Source: Sporocytophaga sp.
GTDB taxonomy: Bacteria > Bacteroidota > Bacteroidia > Cytophagales > Cytophagaceae
Direction: 5' to 3'
Length of the DNA: 64,000 bases
NCBI RefSeq assembly: GCF_017745095.1
Contig: NZ_JAGHZZ010000001.1
Location: forward strand, 248,001 to 312,000
In this document: positions 9,624 to 24,624 of the stretch, in pieces
Numbering within the stretch: position 1 is the stretch's first letter
Layout: each line of letters begins with the position of its first letter
The notes under the pieces: generated by a model
The model's database searches: none
The model's input: only the letters and a program-made list of their open reading frames with translations
What the model was told of the DNA's origin: nothing
Program-made: the position numbers and the translations under genes

Positions 9624-10412
9624 ATGCTTGAACCATTCCTGACTGCCGAAGGCATCGTCAGTTTCCTAACGCTTTCAATTATGGAAGTCGTTTTGGGAAT
9701 TGATAACATTATCTTTATTTCCATTCTATCCGACAGACTCCCTGCCGAAGATCAAAAAAAAGGAAGACTAATTGGTCTTAGTCTTGCACTCATTATAAGA
9801 ATCTTTCTGCTGATGATTATTTCAATCATCGTTGGCTTTACAAAACCGGTAATTGAAGACTTTTACGGAATAGATATCAGCTTGAGAGATATCATTTTGT
9901 TTAGCGGAGGACTTTTCCTTATATATAAGAGTACTGCTGAAATACATGAAAAACTTGAAGGTGAGGAAGAAGATGCAGCTAAAACAAAGAAATTATCGCT
10001 TGTATCTGCTGTTATCCAGATAGTGCTTCTTGACATCGTATTTTCTTTTGATTCCATTCTGACGGCAATAGGATTAGTGAATAATCCTCATAGGGATTTG
10101 CCAATTATGATTGCGGCCATAATAGTTTCTATTGTAGTGATGCTGCTTTTTGCAAAAAGCATTAGCCACTTCATAAATACGCACCCAACAATTAAAATGC
10201 TTGCACTTACATTCCTATTGCTAATAGGAATTTTACTTGTGGCTGAAGCATTCCACTATCATGTGCCAAAAGGCTATATCTATTTCGCAATAGGATTCTC
10301 ATTAGGTGTTGAAATGCTTAATATGCGGGCAAAGAGAAAATCCAAGCCAGTAAAGCTTAGAAATAACCCGGATCTGGAAGAAGAGGAAGAGAAGCTGCAT
10401 AAAGAACACTGA
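9624..10412 (+). CDS. TerC family integral membrane protein
   Basis: A 262-residue protein with about seven hydrophobic helices. The two family hallmarks are present: IMEVVLGIDNIIFISIL near residue 20 and IVLLDIVFSFDSILTAIGL near residue 140, whose Asp/Asn residues are thought to bind a metal ion. Members have been linked to tellurite resistance and, in the Alx/MntP-like branch, to manganese efflux. The C-terminal tail is soluble and strongly acidic (DLEEEEEKLHKEH). A strong hairpin at 10441 ends the unit. Confidence 0.93.
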   Translation: MLEPFLTAEGIVSFLTLSIMEVVLGIDNIIFISILSDRLPAEDQKKGRLIGLSLALIIRIFLLMIISIIVGFTKPVIEDFYGIDISLRDIILFSGGLFLIYKSTAEIHEKLEGEEEDAAKTKKLSLVSAVIQIVLLDIVFSFDSILTAIGLVNNPHRDLPIMIAAIIVSIVVMLLFAKSISHFINTHPTIKMLALTFLLLIGILLVAEAFHYHVPKGYIYFAIGFSLGVEMLNMRAKRKSKPVKLRNNPDLEEEEEKLHKEH

Positions 10413-10440
10413 TATTTATTAAAATAATTTTAAGTTTGTA

Positions 10441-10478
10441 GTTCCTGCAAATGACCTTTAAAGGTATTTTGCAGGAAC
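10441..10478 (+). terminator. Hairpin after the TerC gene, probable terminator
   Basis: GTTCCTGCAAA (10441-10451) is exactly complementary to 10468-10478. The loop itself contains the palindrome ACCTTTAAAGGT. A T-rich tract follows. Confidence 0.75.
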
Positions 10479-10547
10479 TTGTATTTTGTATATTTAGGTA
10501 AGAATTAATAACCCTAACTGATCCTCCAGGATCCGAAAATAAAAGAA

Positions 10548-11417
10548 ATGGTAGCAATCCTCATTAATGAGTGCCTTAAGGTGAGCGTGAAAAGCTCGGG
10601 CGCTGAACTGATAAGTCTCAAAAAAACAATGGCAAACAAGGAATTCCTCTGGCAGGGAGATCCAGCATTCTGGGGAAGAAGGGCGCCGGTATTGTTTCCT
10701 ATCGTAGGAAGACTCGCAGGAAATAAATATCAGTCAGATGATGAGGTATATGAATTACCTCAGCATGGTTTTGCAAGAGATATGCATTTTGACCTGGTAG
10801 ATCAGCAAGATCAATCTCTTACTTATAAGCTTTCTAGTTCAGAAGAAACGTTGAAGCTTTATCCATATAACTTTGAATTGACCATTGAGTACAAGCTTCA
10901 GAAAAGCAAGCTGATCGTTTCTTATGAAGTAAAAAATACAGATGATAAAACTATCTATTTCTCAATAGGAGCTCACCCTGCATTGCGTTGCCCAATAGAG
11001 CAGGGAGAAGAATTTACGGATTACTATCTTGAGTTTGAAAAGAAAGAAACAGTCAACAGGTATTTATTAACAGATGGTTTGCTTAACGGAAAGTCCGAAC
11101 CTGTCTTGAATAATGAAAACATTCTGCCTCTTTCAGTAGATCTGTTTACAGGAAAAGACGCAATCATTTTCAAGGATTTAAAATCAAGTGTGGTAAGCCT
11201 TAAGAGCAAAAAGTCATCTCATAAAATAACCATGGACTTTGCTGGATTTCCTTATCTGGGAGTCTGGACTAAACCAGGTCCGTTTATTTGTCTGGAGCCT
11301 TGGTTTGGAGTTGCAGATCAAATCGGATTTGAAGGTCAGTTCAAAGACAAGGAAGCTATGAGATCTCTTGTAAAGGGCAAAACATTCAAATGTGAATATT
11401 CAATAGATGTGCAATAA
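10548..11417 (+). CDS. Aldose 1-epimerase family protein (LacX-like)
   Basis: A 289-residue soluble sugar mutarotase-like protein. The catalytic residues expected for the galactose-mutarotase fold are visible: His in LPQHGFARD (about residue 74), His in SIGAHPALRCP (about residue 147) and Glu in CLEPWFGVAD (about residue 250). WGRRAPVLFPIVGRL is typical of the LacX/YeaD-like branch rather than classical GalM. The substrate is not predictable from the sequence. It ends in a bidirectional terminator shared with the MoxR-type gene. Confidence 0.9.
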   Translation: MVAILINECLKVSVKSSGAELISLKKTMANKEFLWQGDPAFWGRRAPVLFPIVGRLAGNKYQSDDEVYELPQHGFARDMHFDLVDQQDQSLTYKLSSSEETLKLYPYNFELTIEYKLQKSKLIVSYEVKNTDDKTIYFSIGAHPALRCPIEQGEEFTDYYLEFEKKETVNRYLLTDGLLNGKSEPVLNNENILPLSVDLFTGKDAIIFKDLKSSVVSLKSKKSSHKITMDFAGFPYLGVWTKPGPFICLEPWFGVADQIGFEGQFKDKEAMRSLVKGKTFKCEYSIDVQ

Positions 11418-13085: not shown

Positions 13086-14186
13086 TTATCTCACTGTTTT
13101 TTTTCTGTTTCTAATAAAATCTTCAAAGATATATTCTCCAAGTCCGGTAAGTGAGCTGTAAAAGGCACGTCCGTTGTTTGTCTTGGTAAACTCCTGGACA
13201 AACTGTTGAAGATATGGATCTTTCGCAATCATAAAGGTAGTTATAGGAATATTTAGTCTCCTGCACTGGCCCGCCATTTCAAGTGTCTTATTCACTACCT
13301 TTCTGTCCAAACCGAAACTGTTTTTATAATATTTTGTTCCTACCTTCAAACAGGTGGGCTTACCATCCGTGATCATAAAGATCTGTTTGTTATTGGTTTT
13401 TCTCCTTCTGAGAATGTCCATCGCAAGTTCTAATCCAGCATAAGTATTGGTGTGGTATGGGCCGACCTCAAGGTAAGGAAGATCTTTGATTTCAACCGGC
13501 CATGCATCGTTACCAAATACAATAATATCAAGCGTGTCCTTTGGATATTTTACTTTCACAAGTTCAGCCAAAGCCATGGCTACTTTTTTAGCAGGAGTAA
13601 TTCTATCCTCTCCATATAATATCATGGAGTGGGAAATGTCTATCATCAGGACCGTGCTGGTCTGAGACTTATGTTCTTTTTCCTGAACCTGAAGATCCTC
13701 ATGGGTAAGCTTGAATTCCTCAATTCCATGATTAATCTGAGCAGTATGAAGTGAGTCCGTAATATTGATTGAATCGAGAGCATCTCCAAATTGGTATGGT
13801 CTGATGTCTGCGCTCGGCTCATCTCCCAATCCGGTTTTTGAAGTATTATGATTCCCTTTCTGATTCTTCTTAAGTTTTCCGAATATTTCTTCCAGGGCAT
13901 TTCTTCTTATAACTTGCTCAGATTTGCCGGTAAGTTTAAAAGTTCCCTTTTCGGAACTTTCTTCTTTGATAAAGCCCTTGTCGTTCAGTTCACGGATAAA
14001 ATCTCCCATTCCATAACTGTCATCCGTTAATCCATGTTGACGGTCAAGGTCATTCATCCAGTTAAGTGCTTCGGAAACGTCTCCTGAGGTATAATTCAGC
14101 AATTGGAAAAAAACCTTTGATAGGTTTTCAAACCCTGAATCTCCCTTAGGTGGAGGTGTAAATTTTGAAAATCTTAATCCCTTCAT
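13086..14186 (-). CDS. Von Willebrand factor A domain protein, partner of the MoxR-type ATPase
   Basis: A 366-residue cytoplasmic protein. The C-terminal half is a vWA domain with a complete MIDAS: DISHS at residues 183-187, a Thr-containing loop around YHTNTYAG, and ITDGKPT. The N-terminal 170 residues are helical and charged, without a signal peptide or membrane helix. It is the first gene of a two-gene operon with the ATPase, the arrangement of MoxR-vWA chaperone pairs. No promoter motif is evident in the 200 bp upstream. Confidence 0.9.
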   Translation of the reverse strand: MKGLRFSKFTPPPKGDSGFENLSKVFFQLLNYTSGDVSEALNWMNDLDRQHGLTDDSYGMGDFIRELNDKGFIKEESSEKGTFKLTGKSEQVIRRNALEEIFGKLKKNQKGNHNTSKTGLGDEPSADIRPYQFGDALDSINITDSLHTAQINHGIEEFKLTHEDLQVQEKEHKSQTSTVLMIDISHSMILYGEDRITPAKKVAMALAELVKVKYPKDTLDIIVFGNDAWPVEIKDLPYLEVGPYHTNTYAGLELAMDILRRRKTNNKQIFMITDGKPTCLKVGTKYYKNSFGLDRKVVNKTLEMAGQCRRLNIPITTFMIAKDPYLQQFVQEFTKTNNGRAFYSSLTGLGEYIFEDFIRNRKKTVR

Positions 14187-14503: not shown

Positions 14504-14511
14504 TAAATTTG
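14504..14511 (+). promoter_or_regulatory. Candidate -7 element of the leu operon
   Basis: TAAATTTG is an exact match to the Bacteroidota -7 consensus TAnnTTTG, with no well-spaced TTG at -33. It predicts a transcript start near 14518, about 55 nt before the leader peptide. Confidence 0.5.
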
Positions 14512-14572
14512 TAAGTATTATCGCATAAAAAAGTGGAATTGTGGCGAACTGTTAAGTGTTACAAGATTGAAA

Positions 14573-14641
14573 ATGTTTAAGTCATTTAATATATTATTTA
14601 AAACCCTCCTGCTGCTGAAAGTCAAATTTTCAGTTGGGTGA
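14573..14641 (+). CDS. leuL: Leucine leader peptide of the leu operon
   Basis: A 22-residue ORF starting at ATG 14573 and ending at TGA 14639-14641. Its centre reads NILFKTLLLLKVK. Codons 12-15 are CTC CTG CTG CTG, so four leucines are read in a row, with further Ile, Leu and Val codons close by. It ends 23 bp before a terminator hairpin and 90 bp before leuA. The stop codon lies inside the strand that could form the antiterminator. This is the classical layout of a ribosome-mediated attenuator sensing charged leucyl-tRNA. The ORF is too short for routine gene calling. Confidence 0.8.
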   Translation: MFKSFNILFKTLLLLKVKFSVG

Positions 14642-14693
14642 GGCATTTAAACGAATAAAAAAGGCCATTCTCAACAATTGAGGATGGCTTTTT
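14615..14693 (+). promoter_or_regulatory. Leucine transcription attenuator
   Basis: Pause hairpin: CTGAAA (14615-14620) with TTTCAG (14628-14633). Antiterminator: 14633-14644 (GTTGGGTGAGGC) with 14664-14675 (GCCATTCTCAAC), 10 of 12 positions pairing if G-U pairs are counted. Terminator: 14664-14673 with 14679-14688, ten pairs including one G-U, 5-nt loop, then T5 (14689-14693). The antiterminator and terminator share 14664-14673 and exclude each other. A ribosome stalled on the Leu codons would cover the pause hairpin and leave the antiterminator free; one reaching the stop codon would block it. Confidence 0.78.
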
Positions 14694-14730
14694 CATTAAA
14701 AATATACGTCTGTAGAGAAAACAAAAAGTT

Positions 14731-15879
14731 ATGGCTAAAAGAGTTTATATTTTTGACACAACACTTCGTGATGGAGAGCAGGTGCCAGGCTGCCAGTTGA
14801 ATACTGAAGAAAAGATCAGGGTTGCCAAAGCATTGGAAGAACTTGGTGTTGATGTTATCGAAGCAGGGTTTCCGATTTCAAGCCCTGGGGATTTTAACTC
14901 CGTTGTTGAAATCAGTAAGGCAGTAAAAGAACCGATCGTCTGTGCGCTCACCAGAGCAAAAGAAATGGATATCGATAGTGCAGCTGAAGCCCTGAGATTT
15001 GCCAAAAGAAAACGTATTCATACAGGTATCGGAAGCTCTGATATGCACATTCAGTATAAACTGAGAACAACGAGAGAAAAAGTTATCGAACAAGGGGTTG
15101 CCGCAGTTAAGTATGCACGCAAATTTGTTGATGACGTTGAGTTTTTCTGCGAAGATGCTGGACGTGCTGATGTTGTTTTCCTTGCACAGATGGTTGAAGC
15201 AGTTATCGCCGCGGGTGCTACAGTTGTTAATATTCCTGATACTACCGGATATACTTTGCCATGGCAATTCGGTGAGCGTATCAAGTATCTTATGGACAAT
15301 GTTAAAAACGTAGATAAAGCTATCATATCTGCGCATTGCCACAATGACCTTGGTCTAGCCACGGCAAATGCTATTGCAGCTATTGCAAATGGCGCCAGAC
15401 AGGTAGAATGTACCATCAACGGTATCGGAGAAAGGGCAGGAAATACTTCTCTTGAAGAAGTGGCGATGATTATTAAAAGCCATCCTTCTCTTGGAATTGA
15501 GACAGGTATCAATACTAAAAAATTAGTTCCAACCAGTGATCTTGTATCTTCTTTAATGAGAATGCCGGTTCAGGCGAACAAAGCTATCGTTGGTAAAAAC
15601 GCTTTTGCGCACTCATCAGGTATTCACCAGGATGGTTTCCTTAAGCATAGGGAGAACTACGAAATCATAGACCCTTCTGATGTTGGAGCTGATGCATCAT
15701 CTATCGTTCTTACTGCAAGAAGTGGAAGAGCAGCATTAAGCCACCGTCTTACTACTATTGGCTACCAGCTTTCAAAAGAACAATTGGATCAGGTTTACAA
15801 GAAATTCCTTGATATGGCTGATCAGAGAAAGCAGATTGAGGATGCCGATTTGAATGAATTAATGGCGCCTTACTGCTAA
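14731..15879 (+). CDS. leuA: 2-isopropylmalate synthase, short form
   Basis: First committed step of leucine synthesis: 2-ketoisovalerate plus acetyl-CoA gives 2-isopropylmalate. Catalytic TIM-barrel motifs are [15 protein letters not shown] (metal and substrate Arg/Asp), [37 protein letters not shown] (metal His residues) and [13 protein letters not shown]. At 382 residues it ends soon after the linker ([12 protein letters not shown]) and lacks the roughly 120-residue C-terminal domain that binds leucine for feedback inhibition in longer LeuA proteins. Control by the upstream attenuator may matter more as a result. A homocitrate- or citramalate-synthase-like specificity is possible in principle, but the leuCDB context makes leuA by far the best call. 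Confidence 0.95.
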
Positions 15880-15942: not shown

Positions 15943-17349
15943 TTGGCTGCTAAAACTTTATTTGACAAAGTCTGGGATGCACACGTGGTAACCGAAATAA
16001 AAGGTGGCCCTAGTGTATTGTACATCGATAAACATCTTGTTCACGAAGTGACAAGTCCTCAGGCTTTTGCAGGTCTTGAGAAAAGAGGTATCTCTCTTTT
16101 CAGATTACAAAATACCCTTGCTACTGCTGACCATAACGTTCCTACAAAAGATCAGCACTTACCTATAAAAGAAGCTTTATCAAGACAGCAAGTAGAAAAG
16201 CTGTCTGAAAACTGCAATAAATTTGGCGTTACGCTTTATGGTTTAGGTCATCCTTACCAAGGTATTGTTCACGTGATTGGTCCTGAATTGGGTGTAACAC
16301 TTCCCGGAATGACTATGGTATGTGGAGATAGTCATACTTCTACGCATGGTGCTTTTGGCTCAATTGCATTTGGTATCGGAACAAGTGAAGTAGAACAGGT
16401 GATGGCAACACAATGCCTGATGCAAAGCAAACCTAAAACCATGAAAATTGAGATCAATGGTAAATTAGGAAAAGGCGTTGTTTCAAAAGACATCATTCTT
16501 TATATCATCTCTAAAATCAGTGCAGCTGGCGGAACCGGATATTTTGTAGAATTTGCTGGATCTGCAATCAGATCTCTTTCTATGGAGGCAAGAATGACCA
16601 TCTGTAACATGAGCATCGAAATGGGTGCAAGAGGTGGAATGATTGCTCCTGATGAAACTACTTTTGAATATATCAAAGGCCGTGAATTTGCTCCGAAAGG
16701 TGCTAAGTTTGATGAAGCTGTTGCTTACTGGAAGACTTTGTTCTCTGACGAAGATGCAAAATTCGATCAGGTATTAACATACAAGGCTGAAGATATTGAG
16801 CCAATGATTACATACGGAACAAATCCGGGAATGGGAATCAAAGTAAGTGGACATATTCCTGCTGAAACAGAAATCGATGCAGCAAGCAGACTTTCATTTA
16901 AGAAATCTCTTGAATACATGGATTTTCAACCAGGTGCAAGTCTTATCGGAAAACAGGTAAATTATGTTTTCATAGGAAGCTGTACCAATTCAAGAATCGA
17001 AGATTTGCGAATGGTAGCGGAATTTGTGAAAGGAAAGAAAAAAGCTGCAAATATTAATGCATACGTAATACCAGGCTCTAAGCAGGTTGAGAAACAAGCT
17101 ATAGCAGAAGGTATAGATAAAGTATTGGCAGAAGCAGGTTTTGAGTTAAGAGAACCAGGATGTTCTGCATGTCTTGGAATGAATGAAGATAAAGTGCCGA
17201 AAGGAGAATACTGTGTGTCTACTTCAAACAGAAACTTTGAAGGCCGTCAGGGACCAGGCGCACGTACATTGCTGGCTAGCCCATTAACTGCAGCAGCAGT
17301 AGCGGTGAGCGGTAAAATTGTTGATGTTCGTGACTTTAATCTGAATTAA
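15943..17349 (+). CDS. leuC: 3-isopropylmalate dehydratase large subunit
   Basis: Isomerises 2- to 3-isopropylmalate with LeuD. At 468 residues it has the usual length. The 4Fe-4S ligands are in [13 protein letters not shown] and GCSACLGMN. Other motifs are [14 protein letters not shown] and [16 protein letters not shown]. The start is TTG at 15943, giving the normal LeuC N-terminus ([16 protein letters not shown]); no ATG is available nearby in frame. It follows leuA by 63 bp. Confidence 0.97.
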
Positions 17350-17353
17350 TTCC

Positions 17354-17962
17354 ATGGAAAAATTTGTAACTATTACTTCAAATATAACTCCTCTTGCTAT
17401 TGAGGATATCGATACAGACCAGATCATTCCGGCAAGATTTCTTAAAGCTACTACAAGAGAAGGCTTTGGAGAAAACCTTTTCAGAGACTGGAGATTCGAT
17501 GAACAGAATAATCCTAAGAAGGATTTTGTTCTGAATAATTCCGACTATGCTGGATCAAGAATTTTAGTAGCTGGCAAAAACTTTGGTTGCGGATCAAGCC
17601 GTGAGCACGCTGCGTGGGCGATTACAGATGCTGGGTTCAAAGTTGTGGTATCAAGCTTTTTTGCAGATATCTTTAAAAACAATGCATTGAACAATGGTCT
17701 TTTACCAGTTCAGGTTTCTCAGCAGTTTTTAAATACCGTTTTTGAAAAAGTACAAGCTGATAAAAACCTTAAACTTAATGTAGATCTTGAGAAACAAAAG
17801 ATTGAAATCGTTGGACACAACGTTTCTGAGTCTTTTGAAATCAACGACTACAAAAAGACTTGTCTAATCAATGGCTATGATGATATAGATTATCTTCTAA
17901 GCATTAAAGACAAAATCGAGGCTTACGAAAAAGGAAGTAAATACCTGAGTTTAGTAAAATAA
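17354..17962 (+). CDS. leuD: 3-isopropylmalate dehydratase small subunit
   Basis: Partner of LeuC that supplies the swivelling substrate-binding domain. At 202 residues it has normal length. Motifs are [15 protein letters not shown] at the start and [18 protein letters not shown], with the YLK-like loop residues. It begins 4 bp after the leuC stop, and a secreted beta-helix gene follows after only 3 bp. Confidence 0.97.
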
Positions 17963-17965
17963 GCA

Positions 17966-19321
17966 ATGAAGAAGTATTTACTTTTTGCACTGATTGTTTG
18001 TGCGGCTATTAAAGCTGGAGCTACTGATATCGGTGGAATATTGGGAAATATGACGCTGACAAAGGCGAATAGTCCATACCATATTACTAAAAATATTTTG
18101 ATTCCTTCAGGAGTAAAGGTTGTTATTGATCCTGGAGTTGAAGTACTAGTTGACCCAAATCTTTTTATTCAGGTAAACGGTACATTAAGAGCCATTGGTA
18201 CGATTGAGGATTCAATTTATTTTAAAATATCACAGAATGCACCCTATTGGAATGGTATAAAATTTTCTGGAACTTCAGAAAGTTATGATCCCAAAAGCGG
18301 TGAAGGTTCAGTTATTTCATTTGCTTCATTTAAGATTGGAGAATTTTGGCTTCATTCCGACGATATTGCTGCTATTGACATTGTAGATTGTAGCCCTAAA
18401 ATTTCAAATAATACCATAGCAGGTGGTGCTGTTGGAATAAAAATTAACGCGTTATCCCTATATTCAACTATTTCTAATAACCGTATTTACGGTGGATTTA
18501 TAGGTATTGGAGTGGAAGGGAACGTTACTATAGTTGAAAATGAAATATTTGCAATATTTCATGCGCCTATTAGTATTTCAGTCGGAGATGTTTATGTTGT
18601 AAATAATGAAATTCATAATAGTGGATATGGGATTGTATTGAATGACGAATATTACCCCTCTTCTTTTAATATTATTGGTAATTTCTTTCATGACAATTAT
18701 AATGCATCGGTATATGGTGATACCAAAAACATTGCAATAAATTGTAATACGTTTAAAGACAATAATGGTCCAAACATCAGTTTAGGATGCACATATATAC
18801 CGAAAAGCATAAAAGGAAATAATTTTCTTAATTATACAAAGGCCAATGTAGCAATTGGAGATGCTTTTAATTGTTATATTACCCTCCCTGAGGGAACGTT
18901 CTTCCTTCCTTTAGAAATTGAAAATAATTATTGGAATGGTCTTTCAGAAAATGAAATTGAAAAGTCAATTTTGGATTTTGAAGATGATTTCAGTAAAAAA
19001 ATTAAAGTAGTAGTAGTTTCAACCAGCAGTGATTCTTTATTGTATGATTCAGCTTATTGTTTCGCTGGGACTGTAACTTCTGTGATGCAGCCAAATGATA
19101 AAATTACAAATTCAATTAATGTCTTCCCGAACCCAAGCGTCGGAGGTGTGCTCACATTTACTACAGATGATTGCACAATCGAAGAAATTACCCTGGTAAA
19201 TGCACTTAATCAGCAAGAAGTGACCAAAGGCACCAAAGTAGAAAGCACTTTTAAAGGTCTGGTAACAGCTATTGTAAAAACGAATAAAGGTATTTTTAAT
19301 AAGAAAATAATTATTTATTAA
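17966..19321 (+). CDS. Secreted parallel beta-helix protein with T9SS signal, inside the leu operon
   Basis: A 451-residue protein with signal peptide (LLFALIVCAAIKAGA), then a right-handed beta-helix of NosD/pectate-lyase type. Repeated Asn-rich turns (ISNNTIAGGAVGIKI, ISNNRIYGGFIGIGV, IVENEIFAIFHAPI, VVNNEIHNSGYGIVL) are spaced about 22-24 residues apart. The C-terminus is a T9SS type A domain (VFPNPSVGG near residue 389, ending GIFNKKIIIY). No catalytic residues could be assigned. The gene is 3 bp after leuD and 4 bp before leuB, so it must be transcribed with them, although a surface protein has no obvious role in leucine synthesis. Its codon use looks more AT-rich than its neighbours (many ATA, AAT and TTT codons), which suggests insertion into a pre-existing operon. 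Confidence 0.85.
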   Translation: MKKYLLFALIVCAAIKAGATDIGGILGNMTLTKANSPYHITKNILIPSGVKVVIDPGVEVLVDPNLFIQVNGTLRAIGTIEDSIYFKISQNAPYWNGIKFSGTSESYDPKSGEGSVISFASFKIGEFWLHSDDIAAIDIVDCSPKISNNTIAGGAVGIKINALSLYSTISNNRIYGGFIGIGVEGNVTIVENEIFAIFHAPISISVGDVYVVNNEIHNSGYGIVLNDEYYPSSFNIIGNFFHDNYNASVYGDTKNIAINCNTFKDNNGPNISLGCTYIPKSIKGNNFLNYTKANVAIGDAFNCYITLPEGTFFLPLEIENNYWNGLSENEIEKSILDFEDDFSKKIKVVVVSTSSDSLLYDSAYCFAGTVTSVMQPNDKITNSINVFPNPSVGGVLTFTTDDCTIEEITLVNALNQQEVTKGTKVESTFKGLVTAIVKTNKGIFNKKIIIY

Positions 19322-19325
19322 TTAA

Positions 19326-20411
19326 ATGAAAAAGAACATTGCAGTCCTTAAAGGAGATGGTATTGGTCCGGAAGTAACGGATCAGGCTCTAAAAGCACTT
19401 AAAGCCATTGAAGAAGTGTATGGCCACGAATTTACTTATACTGAAGCTTTAATTGGTGCTATTGCAATTGATGTTACTGGAAATCCATTTCCTGAAGAGA
19501 CATTCAAAACTTGCCAGGCTTCTGATGCAATTCTTTTTGGTGCTATCGGTCATCCTAAGTATGACAATGATCCGAACGCTCCTGTAAGGCCGGAGCAAGG
19601 ACTTCTTGCTATGAGAAAAAGCCTTGGTTTGTTCGCTAATATTAGACCAATTAACACATATAAAATTTTGGCAAACTCTTCTCCTCTTAGAGCTGACCTT
19701 GTTGATGGAGTTGATTTTGTTGTTTTCAGAGAGCTTACAGGCGGTATCTATTTCGGACAAAAGGGAAGAAGCGAAGACAGAAATATTGCATTTGATAATT
19801 GCTCTTATTCAAAAGAAGAAATTACAAGAATAAGCAAACTTGCTTTTGAAGCTGCTCAGAAGAGAAATAAGAGAGTGACGCTAGTTGACAAAGCCAATGT
19901 ACTTGCAACTTCAAGACTTTGGAGAGAAGTTGTGAAAGAGTTTGCTAAAAACTATCCCGATGTAACGCTTGATTTCATGTTTGTTGACAATGCAGCAATG
20001 AAGATCATTCAGAATCCTAAATTCTTTGATGTAGTGTTAACAGAGAACATGTTCGGTGATATCCTTACAGATGAGGCTTCTGTTATCACAGGTTCTCTTG
20101 GTATGCTGCCTTCTGCTTCAGTTGGTAGCAAAACTGCCCTTTATGAGCCAATCCATGGATCTTATCCCGAAGCTGCTGGTAAAAACATTGCTAATCCTAA
20201 CGGTGCAATTCTTTCTGCTGCAATGTTATTGGAAACTTCTTTTGGCTTAAGCGAGGAAGCTTCTCTAATCAGAAAGGCAGTTGAAGAGTGCTTGAATCAG
20301 GGTATCGTTACTTCTGATATCCAGAAAGACTCCAAGTATACAACTACCCAGATCGGTGACAAAGTTGCTGAGCTAATCAAAACAAAAAAGAAAGAATTGC
20401 TTGCAGTCTAA
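19326..20411 (+). CDS. leuB: 3-isopropylmalate dehydrogenase
   Basis: Oxidatively decarboxylates 3-isopropylmalate with NAD to 4-methyl-2-oxopentanoate, the direct precursor of leucine. 361 residues. Motifs are [33 protein letters not shown] (substrate loop with Tyr), [39 protein letters not shown] and [18 protein letters not shown] (NAD site). It lies 4 bp after the beta-helix gene and 41 bp before ilvD. Confidence 0.98.
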
Positions 20412-20452: not shown

Positions 20453-22135
20453 ATGGAAAAAATAAATAAAACTAGCTCCAGATTAACTCAGGACCAGACT
20501 CAGCCTGCTTCTCAGGCGATGATGTATGGTGCAGGATTTACAGAAGAAGATATGAGTAAAGCTCAGGTGGGGATTGCGAGTACAGGTTACGAAGGTAATA
20601 CTTGCAATATGCACTTGAATACTTTAGCGGGATGGGTTAAAGAAGGCGTTACCAAAGCTGGTTTAAAGCCGCTTCAATTCAATACAATAGGAGTGAGTGA
20701 CGGTATGTCCATGGGTACGCCAGGGATGAGATATTCTCTTATTTCAAGAGATGTGATTGCTGACAGTATAGAAGCTATTGCAGGAGCTCATTACTATGAC
20801 TCATTGGTTACTATCATGGGTTGTGATAAAAACATGCCAGGTGCTCTTATTGCCATGGCTCGTCTGAACAGACCTTCATTGATGGTATACGGTGGTACGA
20901 TCAAAGCGGGAAACTGGAAAGGTGAAAAATTAAATATCGTTTCTGCTTTTGAAGCTTTAGGTAAAAAATTCGCAGGAACAATTACTGAAGAGGATTTCAA
21001 AGGAGTTATTCAGAATGCTTGCCCAGGTGCCGGTGCATGTGGTGGTATGTATACAGCCAATACAATGGCTTCAGCAATTGAAGCATTGGGAATGTCATTA
21101 CCATACAGCTCTTCAGCACCCGCATTAAGCGATAAGAAGAAGCAAGAATGTTTTAATGTTGGAGAGGCGATCAAAAACCTTCTTATTAAAGATATTAAGC
21201 CAAAAGATATCATTACATATGAGTCTATCACCAATGCGGTGAGAGTTGCAATGATACTCGGTGGTTCTACAAACCTGATCCTTCACTTCCTTGCTATTGC
21301 AAAGGCTGCTGATGTGAAGTTTAATCTGAAAGATTTCCAGGCTTTGTCTGATAAAACTCCAATGCTTGCAGATTTCAAGCCAAGCGGTAAATATATGATG
21401 GAGGATATGGACAATATAGGTGGCCTTCCTTCTGTCATGAAAATGATGTTGAAAGAAGGTCTTCTTCATGGTGATTGCTTGACGATTACAGGAAAGACTG
21501 TAAAGGAAAATCTTGAAACATTCCCTGACCTTTCTAAAGATCAGACTATCATCTATCCATTGAGCAATCCGATTAAAGCAACAGGTCACCTTCAGGTACT
21601 TTACGGAAACATTGCGCCGGACGGATCAGTAGCTAAAATTACTGGTAAAGAAGGGGAGCGTTTCGAAGGAACTGCTAAGGTTTATGATTCGGAAGAAGAT
21701 ATGAACCTTGGAATTGAGAAGGGCGAAGTAAAAGCAGGAAATGTTGTTGTAATTCGTTACGTTGGTCCTAAAGGTGCTCCGGGAATGCCTGAAATGCTTA
21801 AGGGAACATCACTTATCATAGGACAAGGCCTTGGTAATTCAGTTGCCTTAATTACTGATGGAAGATTCTCAGGAGGTACCCATGGTTTTGTAGTGGGTCA
21901 TATTACTCCTGAAGCTCAGGAAGGTGGTCCTATCGGTCTTGTGAGAGATGGTGATAAAATTATCATCGATTCAGTCAACAATACAATAGATGTTTTAGTT
22001 TCCGAAGAGGAGCTTCAGAAAAGAAAAAGCGCCTGGGTTAAACCAGCATATAAAGCAAACAAAGGTCTGTTATACAAATATCTGAAAACGGTTTCTTCCG
22101 CTTCAGAGGGCTGCGTAACAGATGAAATTAAATAG
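20453..22135 (+). CDS. ilvD: Dihydroxy-acid dehydratase
   Basis: Dehydrates dihydroxyisovalerate and dihydroxymethylvalerate to the keto acid precursors of valine, leucine and isoleucine, using an Fe-S cluster. 560 residues. Cluster-ligand cysteines are in [27 protein letters not shown] and [16 protein letters not shown]. The C-terminal domain shows [36 protein letters not shown] in adjoining blocks. It is co-directional with leuB and separated from ilvB by only 20 bp. Confidence 0.98.
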
Positions 22136-22155: not shown

Positions 22156-23877
22156 ATGAAGACCAGAATTAAATTAAGAGGTGCCGAATACATTGTAAAA
22201 CTAATCGAGCTTTTAGGAGCAGAAGATTTGTTTGCATATCCAGGTGGAGCAATTCTTCCTATATATGATGCATTAGCATTCAGCAAGCTAAACAGTGTTC
22301 TTGTTCGTCACGAGCAGGGAGCTTCTTTTGCAGCGAATGGCTATGCTAGAGTAGCAGGCAAACCGGGTTTTTGCCTGGCGACTTCAGGCCCAGGAGCAAC
22401 AAACCTTGTTACTGGTATTGCTGATGCATACGCTGATTCAGTTCCAATGATTGCGATTACCGGTCAGGTAGCGCTTCATCTTGTAGGAACAGATGCATTC
22501 CAGGAAACTGATATTACAGGTATCTGTATTCCAATTACAAAAAAGACATACCTGATTACGAAGCTGGAAGATGCGGCTTCTATTTTTCAGGAAGCATACA
22601 AAATATGTATTGAAGGCCGTCCGGGTCCTGTGCTTATCGATATTCCAAGAAGTGTTCAGGGTAACTTTATTGATCTTGACGAAGATTGGGAACAGCATTT
22701 TCAAAAACCTCAGCCTCCGAAAAAATGTTTGACAACAAATGAAGACATTCATAAGGCAGCTACATTGATCAAAAATGCAAAGAAACCTCTTGTAATTGCT
22801 GGACATGGTGTGTTGTTGGCTAAAGCATGGGATGAACTAAGAGAGTTTGTTCATAGAGAAAATATTCCAGTGATTTCTACAATCCTTGGGACTGGTGCTA
22901 TGGAATACAATGATCCATTGTTCTTTCAATGGTTGGGAATGCATGGAATGAAATATGCTAACCTGGCAGTTCAGGAATCAGACCTTATCATAGCTCTAGG
23001 GATCCGTTTTGATGACAGGATTACAGGAACGCTTGCAACATTTGCTCCTAAAGCAAAAATCATTCACTGCGATATTGATAGAAGCGAGCATGGCAAAAAT
23101 GTTAAAACCGATGTATTCCTTCATGGAGATTTGAAATTGGTTTTACCACAACTGCCGGATACAAGAGATTCTGGAAACAGCAAGGCGCGTGCTGAATGGT
23201 TGATGAATCTTAATGATTCACGTGAAGAATTCCCGATTCTTCTACCAGATTATACTGATTTTAATGAAGTAACTGCGATAAAGGTGCTTGAAGAGATGAT
23301 GGCTCCTGATGCAATTGTAACAACAGATGTTGGTCAGCATCAGATGTGGGCTGCTCAATACATTGTAAGAATGCAGCCTAATCACTTCCTTACTTCAGGC
23401 GGTTTAGGATCTATGGGCTTTGGCTTACCAGCTGCCATGGGAGCTCAGGCTGCTGCGCCAGATAAAGATGTTTGGTGCATCACAGGTGACGGTTCTTTCC
23501 AGATGAATATTCAGGAACTAATGACATGTGTACAGGAGAAATGGCCTATAAAAATATTGTTGCTGGATAATTCATATCTTGGAATGGTGCGACAGTGGCA
23601 GGAGCAGTTCTATGCAAAGAACTATTCAGGCGTGGAGCTCATGAATCCGGACTTTGTATTATTGGCAAAAGCTTTTGGATTGGAATCAGTAAGTGTTGAA
23701 ACTGTTGATCAGCTTAAAGCTGCAGTAAATAAAGCACACAATCTGGATAAGCCGTTCTTAATACATGCTAAAGTTAAGAAAGAAGAGAATGTCCTTCCAA
23801 TGGTTGCACCGGGAACAAGCTTGTCGGATACGATTTATTATCCGGTTCACCCAGTGAAAGAAAAAGTAACTAAATAA
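22156..23877 (+). CDS. ilvB: Acetolactate synthase large (catalytic) subunit
   Basis: A thiamine-diphosphate enzyme that condenses two pyruvates to acetolactate, or pyruvate and 2-oxobutyrate to acetohydroxybutyrate. 573 residues. Features are FAYPGGAILPIYDAL, VRHEQGASFAANGYARV (catalytic Glu), GPGATNLVTGIADAY, the FAD-type middle domain (IALGIRFDDRITG) and WCITGDGSFQMNIQEL (ThDP/Mg site). The usual next genes, the regulatory subunit (ilvN/H) and ilvC, are absent here: a strong terminator follows 18 bp later. They must lie elsewhere in the genome. Confidence 0.97.
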   Translation: MKTRIKLRGAEYIVKLIELLGAEDLFAYPGGAILPIYDALAFSKLNSVLVRHEQGASFAANGYARVAGKPGFCLATSGPGATNLVTGIADAYADSVPMIAITGQVALHLVGTDAFQETDITGICIPITKKTYLITKLEDAASIFQEAYKICIEGRPGPVLIDIPRSVQGNFIDLDEDWEQHFQKPQPPKKCLTTNEDIHKAATLIKNAKKPLVIAGHGVLLAKAWDELREFVHRENIPVISTILGTGAMEYNDPLFFQWLGMHGMKYANLAVQESDLIIALGIRFDDRITGTLATFAPKAKIIHCDIDRSEHGKNVKTDVFLHGDLKLVLPQLPDTRDSGNSKARAEWLMNLNDSREEFPILLPDYTDFNEVTAIKVLEEMMAPDAIVTTDVGQHQMWAAQYIVRMQPNHFLTSGGLGSMGFGLPAAMGAQAAAPDKDVWCITGDGSFQMNIQELMTCVQEKWPIKILLLDNSYLGMVRQWQEQFYAKNYSGVELMNPDFVLLAKAFGLESVSVETVDQLKAAVNKAHNLDKPFLIHAKVKKEENVLPMVAPGTSLSDTIYYPVHPVKEKVTK

Positions 23878-23955: not shown

Positions 23956-24624
23956 ATGAGAAATAAAGCATTATTGTTTTTGGCGGTACTTATAGCTCTT
24001 TCCATTTTTAGTTATGTTTCAAATGCAAGAGGGGAGCTTTACAACAGAATTAATAAGAAGATACAAAAGGGTCAATTTATAGAAGGTGACATTATTTTTC
24101 AAAGTATGGATTCTGATCAATGCAAGGCCGTGAAACTTGCAACACATTCTAAATTCAGTCATGTCGGAATCATTACTTTGGACAAAGGAAAAGCTTTTGT
24201 CTTGGAAGCTGTTGAACCTGTATGTATAACTCCGTTAAAGGAATGGATAGAAAGAGGTAATAACGCCTTTTATACTGTAATGAGGTTAAAAGAACGTGAT
24301 AAATATCTTATTACAGAGAAAGTTTACATAGCAAAGAAACTTGGTAAAGAAATGGTGGGAAAGCATTATGATATCTATTTTGGCTGGTCTGATGATCAGT
24401 TATACTGTTCGGAATTGGTATGGAAAATATACCAAAGGGCGTTTGGATTGGAACTTTGTCCACTGAAGAAGATGAAGGATTTTGATTTAAGCTCTCCGGA
24501 AGTGAAGGCTATAATGGAACAAAGATATGGTAAAAATCCGCCTCTGGAGGAGCAAGTTGTTTCACCTTCTGATTTGGCAGAGTCCAAATTACTGTACGTT
24601 GTAGAGAAAAATAATCTGAAATAA
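23956..24624 (+). CDS. YiiX-like permuted papain-fold protein
   Basis: A 222-residue protein with an N-terminal hydrophobic segment (ALLFLAVLIALSIFSYV), probably a signal peptide or anchor. The rest matches YiiX-type permuted NlpC/P60 enzymes: the motif GDIIFQS, then the His of KFSHVGII, an acidic partner region, and a later DQLYCSELVWKIY carrying the presumed nucleophile Cys. In this permuted fold the His precedes the Cys, as seen here. Substrates are uncertain; relatives cleave amide or lipid-linked bonds. It follows the leu-ilv terminator and so has its own promoter. Confidence 0.85.
   Translation: MRNKALLFLAVLIALSIFSYVSNARGELYNRINKKIQKGQFIEGDIIFQSMDSDQCKAVKLATHSKFSHVGIITLDKGKAFVLEAVEPVCITPLKEWIERGNNAFYTVMRLKERDKYLITEKVYIAKKLGKEMVGKHYDIYFGWSDDQLYCSELVWKIYQRAFGLELCPLKKMKDFDLSSPEVKAIMEQRYGKNPPLEEQVVSPSDLAESKLLYVVEKNNLK

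Follow-up and report, generated by a model that had tools for sequence, protein, structure and literature searches.

The leu and trp attenuators of Escherichia coli and Salmonella are built from four control codons, three alternative RNA helices (1:2, 2:3 and 3:4) and a leader stop codon placed at strand 2, and ribosome-mediated attenuation of this kind is best described in Proteobacteria and Actinobacteria. A leader ahead of leuA in Sporocytophaga sp., a member of the Bacteroidota, is likewise built. It lies in a stretch of 64,000 nucleotides (assembly GCF_017745095.1, contig NZ_JAGHZZ010000001.1, positions 248,001-312,000, forward strand), which we call the window and number from 1 to 64,000. 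As in the enterobacterial leu attenuator, its terminator stands before leuA, whereas the lineage, the putative promoter type and the presence of ilvD and ilvB in the operon are different. We consider it very probable that the element is a ribosome-mediated transcription attenuator sensing charged tRNA-Leu. The mechanism is the textbook one; the novelty lies in the lineage and in the lack of an Rfam match. The Leu leader family of Rfam 15 (RF00512, Leu_leader) returned no match in the window, even at E≤5.

Like the element described here, the actinobacterial LEU element has a leucine-rich leader peptide upstream of leuA; in the parts of the source cited here it is described as a pseudoknot in which Leu codons and the Shine-Dalgarno sequence of leuA together form the base stem, in contrast to the intrinsic terminator of the Sporocytophaga leader (PMC1262725). 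Within the same phylum, clues to leader-peptide attenuation ahead of amino-acid biosynthesis operons come from Flavobacterium psychrophilum, where the relevant passages name pheA and hisG among the conserved 5’ elements and no leuA case (PMC9723704), and small ORFs in 5’ UTRs of Bacteroides thetaiotaomicron are said, in an excerpt, to recall leader peptides (PMC7366714). Extracts of another source list RF01692 (Bacteroid-trp), a cis-regulatory motif of Bacteroidetes, and RF01730 (Termite-leu), a motif from termite guts whose kind is unsettled (PMC2864571, Table 1); neither gave a match at gathering score in the window or in 14 relative loci, 12 of which carry the element. As late as 2010, the authors of one study stated in a passage of their text that they knew of no leader-peptide system shown outside Proteobacteria and Actinobacteria (PMC2965389). 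Our search of the open-licence literature found no described leucine attenuator in Bacteroidota. The abstract of a 2004 article by Vitreschak et al. reportedly mentions attenuators in Bacteroidetes/Chlorobi. The original prediction had presented such a leader as unusual for the lineage, which is right in that little has been described, but has to be qualified by the clues from F. psychrophilum and by similar leaders in several Bacteroidota groups.

The leader before leuA and its operon

The element comprises the following features, all on the plus strand:

14504-14511, plus strand: putative Bacteroidota-type -7 element TAAATTTG, assigned by its fit to the consensus
14573-14641, plus strand: leader ORF MFKSFNILFKTLLLLKVKFSVG, with ATG at 14573, 22 codons and TGA at 14639-14641, by direct sequence reading
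14606-14617, plus strand: Leu control codons CTC CTG CTG CTG (codons 12-15), by direct sequence reading
14605-14643, plus strand: 1:2 protector hairpin between the Leu-codon region and strand 2, -14.6 kcal/mol, in the minimum-energy structure
14633-14644, plus strand: strand 2, the 5’ antiterminator strand, GTTGGGTGAGGC, holding the leader stop codon, by sequence reading and folding
14659-14675, plus strand: strand 3, the 3’ antiterminator strand and 5’ terminator arm, with core GCCATTCTCAAC at 14664-14675, by folding and alignment
14678-14693, plus strand: strand 4, the 3’ terminator arm with T5, by folding and terminator covariation

Direct reading returned the 22-codon leader and its four consecutive Leu codons at exactly the coordinates of the original prediction, and the TGA falls inside strand 2, as had also been claimed. 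Codon 8 (TTA) is an extra Leu codon outside the run, and CTC, the first control codon, is the rarest Leu codon in 13 genes of the window (21 of 483). The predicted antiterminator, 14633-14644 with 14664-14675, is likewise exact at 10 of 12 pairs, two of them G-U. The terminator had been drawn as 14664-14673 with 14679-14688 followed by T5; it is present, but it really consists of 16 pairs between 14659-14674 and 14678-14693, closing a loop of 3 (-19.9 kcal/mol), and T5 forms the outer portion of the stem. None of 200 shuffles reached this stability. A simple terminator scan listed no site at this position, probably because it requires a T-run after the stem. The T-run is short (5 here, 4 in two genus genomes), and the gap between terminator and leuA is only 37 nt. 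Terminator and antiterminator have strand 3 in common and are mutually exclusive, and the 1:2 hairpin, absent from the original prediction, completes the trp/leu-type anatomy. The fold of 14625-14676 has a z-score of -2.1 (4 of 200 shuffles as good). Given that the 2:3 helix alone is at chance level in the window (when the strand-2 stretch was shuffled, 57 of 200 versions paired as well), the case for an attenuator rests on comparison.

Constrained folding of the RNA to 14676, with the ribosome footprint barred from pairing, gave a probability of 1.0 for the 2:3 helix at all four positions of the ribosomal A site in the Leu run. The probability was 0.0 both with the ribosome at the stop codon and without a ribosome. 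In this model, a stall on the control codons exposes strand 2 and a ribosome at the stop masks it. When codons 2 to the stop were scanned with three footprint sizes, the responsive stretch began at about codon 7 or 8 and ended at codon 16 or 17, thereby including the Leu run at 12-15; by folding, stalls at the Ile, Phe, Lys and Thr codons of this stretch would also act. RNA extended to 14695 always folds into the terminator (probability 1.0 in every ribosome state; -19.9 vs -10.2 kcal/mol), so the switch decision must be kinetic, which is also typical of known attenuators.

The -7 consensus of Bacteroidota is TAnnTTTG. A -7-like box lies 45-91 nt 5’ of the leader ATG in the family loci L001-L007, with TAAATTTG itself retained in L002-L004, and boxes of a comparable kind lie before the leaders in L005, L006, L007, L021, L029, L034 and L041; the searched stretches of L018, L046 and L047 hold no such box. 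The leader of L018 is uncertain because its promoter-like box, at -174, falls within the ORF first assigned as leader. The opposite strand of the upstream regions has 40 occurrences of the pattern in 64,177 bases, which corresponds to about 0.08 expected per searched stretch, and there is none at 14512-14731 of the window. A generic sigma-70 scan gave a site matching at 10 of 12 positions at 14567-14595, with a predicted start near 14602, within the Leu run. This site would, if used, be incompatible with the attenuator model; the scan found 3 sites in the region vs 3.0 expected by chance.

Downstream of the element, the operon is arranged as follows:

14731-15879, plus strand: leuA, short form, 382 aa, by NCBIfam, with HMGL-like and HCS_D2 domains only
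15943-17349, plus strand: leuC, by NCBIfam
17354-17962, plus strand: leuD, by NCBIfam
17966-19321, plus strand: inserted ORF, 451 aa, without a family match, between leuD and leuB
19326-20411, plus strand: leuB, by NCBIfam
20453-22135, plus strand: ilvD, by NCBIfam
22156-23877, plus strand: ilvB, acetolactate synthase large subunit, by NCBIfam

A seven-gene leu-ilv operon had been predicted; NCBIfam identifies six biosynthetic genes, but the seventh is the inserted ORF, for which neither NCBIfam nor Pfam returned a match at E≤0.001. Judged from its sequence, the product is apparently secreted. The ORF is also present in G002 and missing from G001 and G003, that is from two of the three other genus genomes, in which a gap of about 50 nt separates leuD from leuB, and it marks an insertion or loss event inside a biosynthetic operon. 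Directly 3’ of ilvB, at a position where one might look for ilvN or ilvC, lies a gene for a YiiX-type permuted papain-like enzyme (23956-24624), and a YiiX-type gene likewise follows ilvB in G001, G002 and G003. The upstream gene (13086-14186, minus strand) is divergent and therefore needs no terminator at the leader site.

The LeuA of the window is without its C-terminal domain in the domain search. Elsewhere this domain mediates leucine feedback, and a larger share of the feedback may therefore fall to transcriptional control here. Among 110 loci, LeuA occurs in short (about 380 aa) and long (about 500 aa) forms. An association between leaders and short LeuA was considered and rejected: in 109 of the 110 loci, with a leader set chosen by eye and detector, leaders accompanied 10 short and 15 long forms, and 58 short and 26 long forms had none. 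Since leaders accompany both forms, we claim no general correlation between leader and LeuA length.

Conservation and chance controls

The family was sampled through the leuA loci of 19 genomes. The terminator core and strand 2 are present in eight of them (L001-L007 and L018), including all four of the genus, and no element was recognised before leuA in ten (by the detector described below; in six of the ten also by eye). The element is not universal in the family. Locus L008 (genome G008) retains the terminator core GCCATTCTCAAC about 60-150 nt before leuA with no clear leucine leader visible, and is possibly a decayed attenuator. The upstream stretches of hisG and ilvC in the window's own genome show no such leader. 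Outside the family, L021 (MKYTSRLLNLNFALLLLAA) and L029 (MIIKYTISLNRLPLTKTV), from two other families of the order, have leaders that differ in sequence and are similarly built.

Within the genus, the Leu run and both pairings survive in all four genomes, as the original prediction had required of close relatives, one of them with three Leu codons. The leader frame is retained throughout: L004 has lost one Leu codon through an in-frame deletion, leaving LLL, and the remaining differences among the four leaders, counted on the alignment, are two synonymous and two non-synonymous changes. In L001-L007 the leader stop follows immediately 3’ of GTTGRG, and L018 carries a compensatory change, GTCGAG with CTCGAC. 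Leucine makes up 14 of 44 codons in the responsive stretch of L001, L005, L006 and L007 (three genera) vs 9.7% in window genes; this enrichment (binomial tail 4e-5; L018 left out) is partly circular, as the leaders were partly recognised via their leucines.

A scan of both strands of the 64-kb window returned a single case of a terminator combined with an antiterminator and a short ORF that stops at strand 2, namely the leader, which it scored at a neighbouring register (TCAGTTG with CAATTGA). A detector that adds at least three Leu to these three features scored the window at 58.6. At a cut-off of 48 or above it recovered 17 of 108 leuA upstream regions (four of them from the window's genus) vs none of 1080 dinucleotide shuffles; lower cut-offs gave 18 regions vs 1 shuffle at 45 and 19 vs 3 at 40, with all thresholds chosen after a first look at the data. 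The sample comprises the 108 of 110 loci with enough sequence. In three loci the best antiterminator of the detector is not GTTGGG/CTCAAY: L002 and L003 were scored at a neighbouring register and L007 with a different pairing.

The covariation that had been proposed as a check among relatives is found in the terminator, but within the family it is only weak in the antiterminator. Across 20 loci, two-sided changes support four of 13 terminator pairs, a number matched by 20 of 500 shuffles, and the covarying cells amount to 17 vs 6.5 in shuffles, a value that none of the 500 reached. This alignment (A2) omits the leader-bearing loci L021, L029, L048, L053, L080 and L107, and is read in its terminator columns only because strand 2 aligns poorly between Cytophagales and Bacteroidales. 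For the antiterminator, a single double change was counted among the eight family sequences, a result that 60 of 500 shuffles attained. When the partner was moved by +3, the covariation score stayed the same, with double changes in three cells.

A swap test compared strand 2 with the strand 3 of its own and of other loci. Among 20 loci across the phylum, selected solely by a strong terminator near leuA and with L002-L004 dropped as near copies, mean complementarity was 19.98 to the own strand 3 vs 15.91 to those of other loci, which none of 20000 permutations reached. The five Cytophagales loci alone gave 1206 of 20000, a result that is suggestive only. In an earlier version with 22 hand-picked loci, none of 20000 permutations matched the whole set, none matched its 14 loci from the Bacteroidales side, and 293 matched the seven from Cytophagales.

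A covariance model, R1, was rejected as a marker of leu leaders. Its matches in 291 genomes of the order include generic terminators, in several cases on both strands, and its tally of 171 genomes therefore cannot count as evidence for leu leaders. The scores of the eight family leaders, 51.6-62.9 bits, follow by construction, R1 having been derived from these and twelve further loci; one match in G184 scores 56.4. In the window's own genome there was no second strong R1 match (59.3 bits, then 39.3).

Similar leaders before leuA and ilvD in Bacteroidota

A wider survey covered both strands (890 kb) of the best 80 of 590 named leuA loci and retained attenuator units with at least four Leu, or at least seven Leu/Ile/Val, near the leader end. 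It gave 22 matches. Eight of them precede leuA, one precedes a branched-chain transaminase gene, and in nine cases ilvD is the next ORF, 22-573 nt further on. Matches in L031, L074 (+) and L094 had no downstream ORF, and a second L074 match lies outside this tally of downstream genes. Three ilvD genes and the transaminase were identified by NCBIfam and the other ilvD genes by tblastn. Given that loci fetched around leuA over-represent branched-chain genes, an unfiltered control was added for the same best 80 of 590 loci: leaders rich in Leu/Ile/Val are found in 17 of 20 units located at most 600 nt before leuA or ilvD vs 5 of 25 units elsewhere (Fisher one-sided, 1.5e-5), and one of these five precedes the branched-chain transaminase gene. 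Of the 20 units, those of L042, L045 and L051 show poor leaders in the reading frame that the script selected; inspection by eye gives a Leu-rich alternative frame for L045 and L051.

The window and many Bacteroidales leaders have in common a strand-3 core, CC-N-TTCTC, which is invariant in the 20 aligned loci, themselves partly picked by such likeness. L021, L053, L080 and L107 have leaders without it. Tentatively, and with more doubt than conviction, we suggest that these elements belong to an old leu/ilv family of Bacteroidota with the core GCC-W-TTCTCA, extending from Cytophagales to Bacteroidales, which may have been re-tuned to Leu, Ile and Val, relocated between leuA, ilvD and ilvE, and doubled in tandem in L077 and probably in L089.

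Two loci show predicted leader-peptide attenuators in series before ilvD: L077 (Lutibacter), on the reverse strand, with leaders MKQVIINIISISISVIIPQKR and MNKKGTSIIILIQVIIICLIS, and L089 (Pontibacter), at 10300-10660. These leaders are rich in Ile, Val and Leu and each has its own terminator, with the ilvD start 214-573 nt further on. A further search of the 700 nt upstream recovered both L077 units and one L089 unit, the other L089 leader beginning outside the searched stretch. Tandem attenuation is probable in Lutibacter and less certain in Pontibacter. Tandem leader-ORF attenuators are known from mgtCBR of Salmonella, according to part of the source (PMC3641672). If true, the tandem ilvD leaders would work as a gate with two inputs from different branched-chain amino acids, and they are more unusual than the window leader itself. 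In L065 (Fulvivirga), at 10398-10521, an Ile/Val-rich leader, MKNQIIISLVIVSVIIMAAKGDW, and a terminator lie 20 nt before a branched-chain transaminase gene.

Proposed mechanism and competing readings

In the mechanism that we propose, RNA polymerase would start near 14518 and transcribe the leader. Under ample leucine, the ribosome would reach the stop at 14639 and cover strand 2, allowing 3:4 to form and transcription to end at about 14693. A shortage of charged tRNA-Leu would stall the ribosome on CTC CTG CTG CTG, where it would open 1:2 and free strand 2, so that 2:3 could form ahead of strand 4 synthesis; the terminator would be lost and leuA-leuC-leuD-(ORF)-leuB-ilvD-ilvB transcribed. Without translation, 1:2 would form and termination would be the default. 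Leucine attenuation by the ribosome, as put forward in the original prediction, draws its support from the anatomy of the element, the folding with ribosome positions, the conservation in relatives and the swap test between strands 2 and 3.

The hairpin could instead be a constitutive partial terminator that tunes the basal level of the operon, next to an unrelated small ORF that is no sensor. This is what one might conclude from a 2:3 helix that is not beyond chance in the window, from the weak covariation within the family and from the ten family genomes without a recognised element before leuA. We nevertheless regard it as improbable, as it leaves aside the leucine enrichment at the responsive codons (itself partly circular), the conserved position of the stop at strand 2, the phylum-wide swap test and the contrast between 17 of 20 rich leaders before leuA or ilvD and 5 of 25 elsewhere (best 80 of 590 loci).

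Clearly less probable again is that the ORF is incidental to a riboswitch, a T-box or a leader bound by a leucine-responsive RNA-binding protein. CC-N-TTCTC does look conserved beyond the needs of pairing, in loci partly picked by this core, yet no Rfam family reached threshold in the window, no Rfam match lay at the element in the 12 carrier loci among the 14 relatives searched, and neither a T-box nor an amino-acid riboswitch appeared even at E≤5. Nor was a further conserved fold seen, and the leader frame is retained in the genus. Translational coupling, in which the leader would boost leuA translation by reinitiation, we judge the least plausible of all. Reinitiation has been proposed for leader genes in general, with a peak of leader-gene distances at 11-14 bp in Bacteroidetes according to the passages cited here (PMC4833913), whereas the leader stop and leuA are separated by 89 nt and a terminator.

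As a very probable ribosome-mediated attenuator, the complete leucine element of Sporocytophaga and its relatives in Bacteroidota provide ready test cases. Bacteroidota have weak Shine-Dalgarno signals and, to our knowledge, their coupling of transcription and translation has been little studied; the element raises the question of how attenuation operates under these circumstances.
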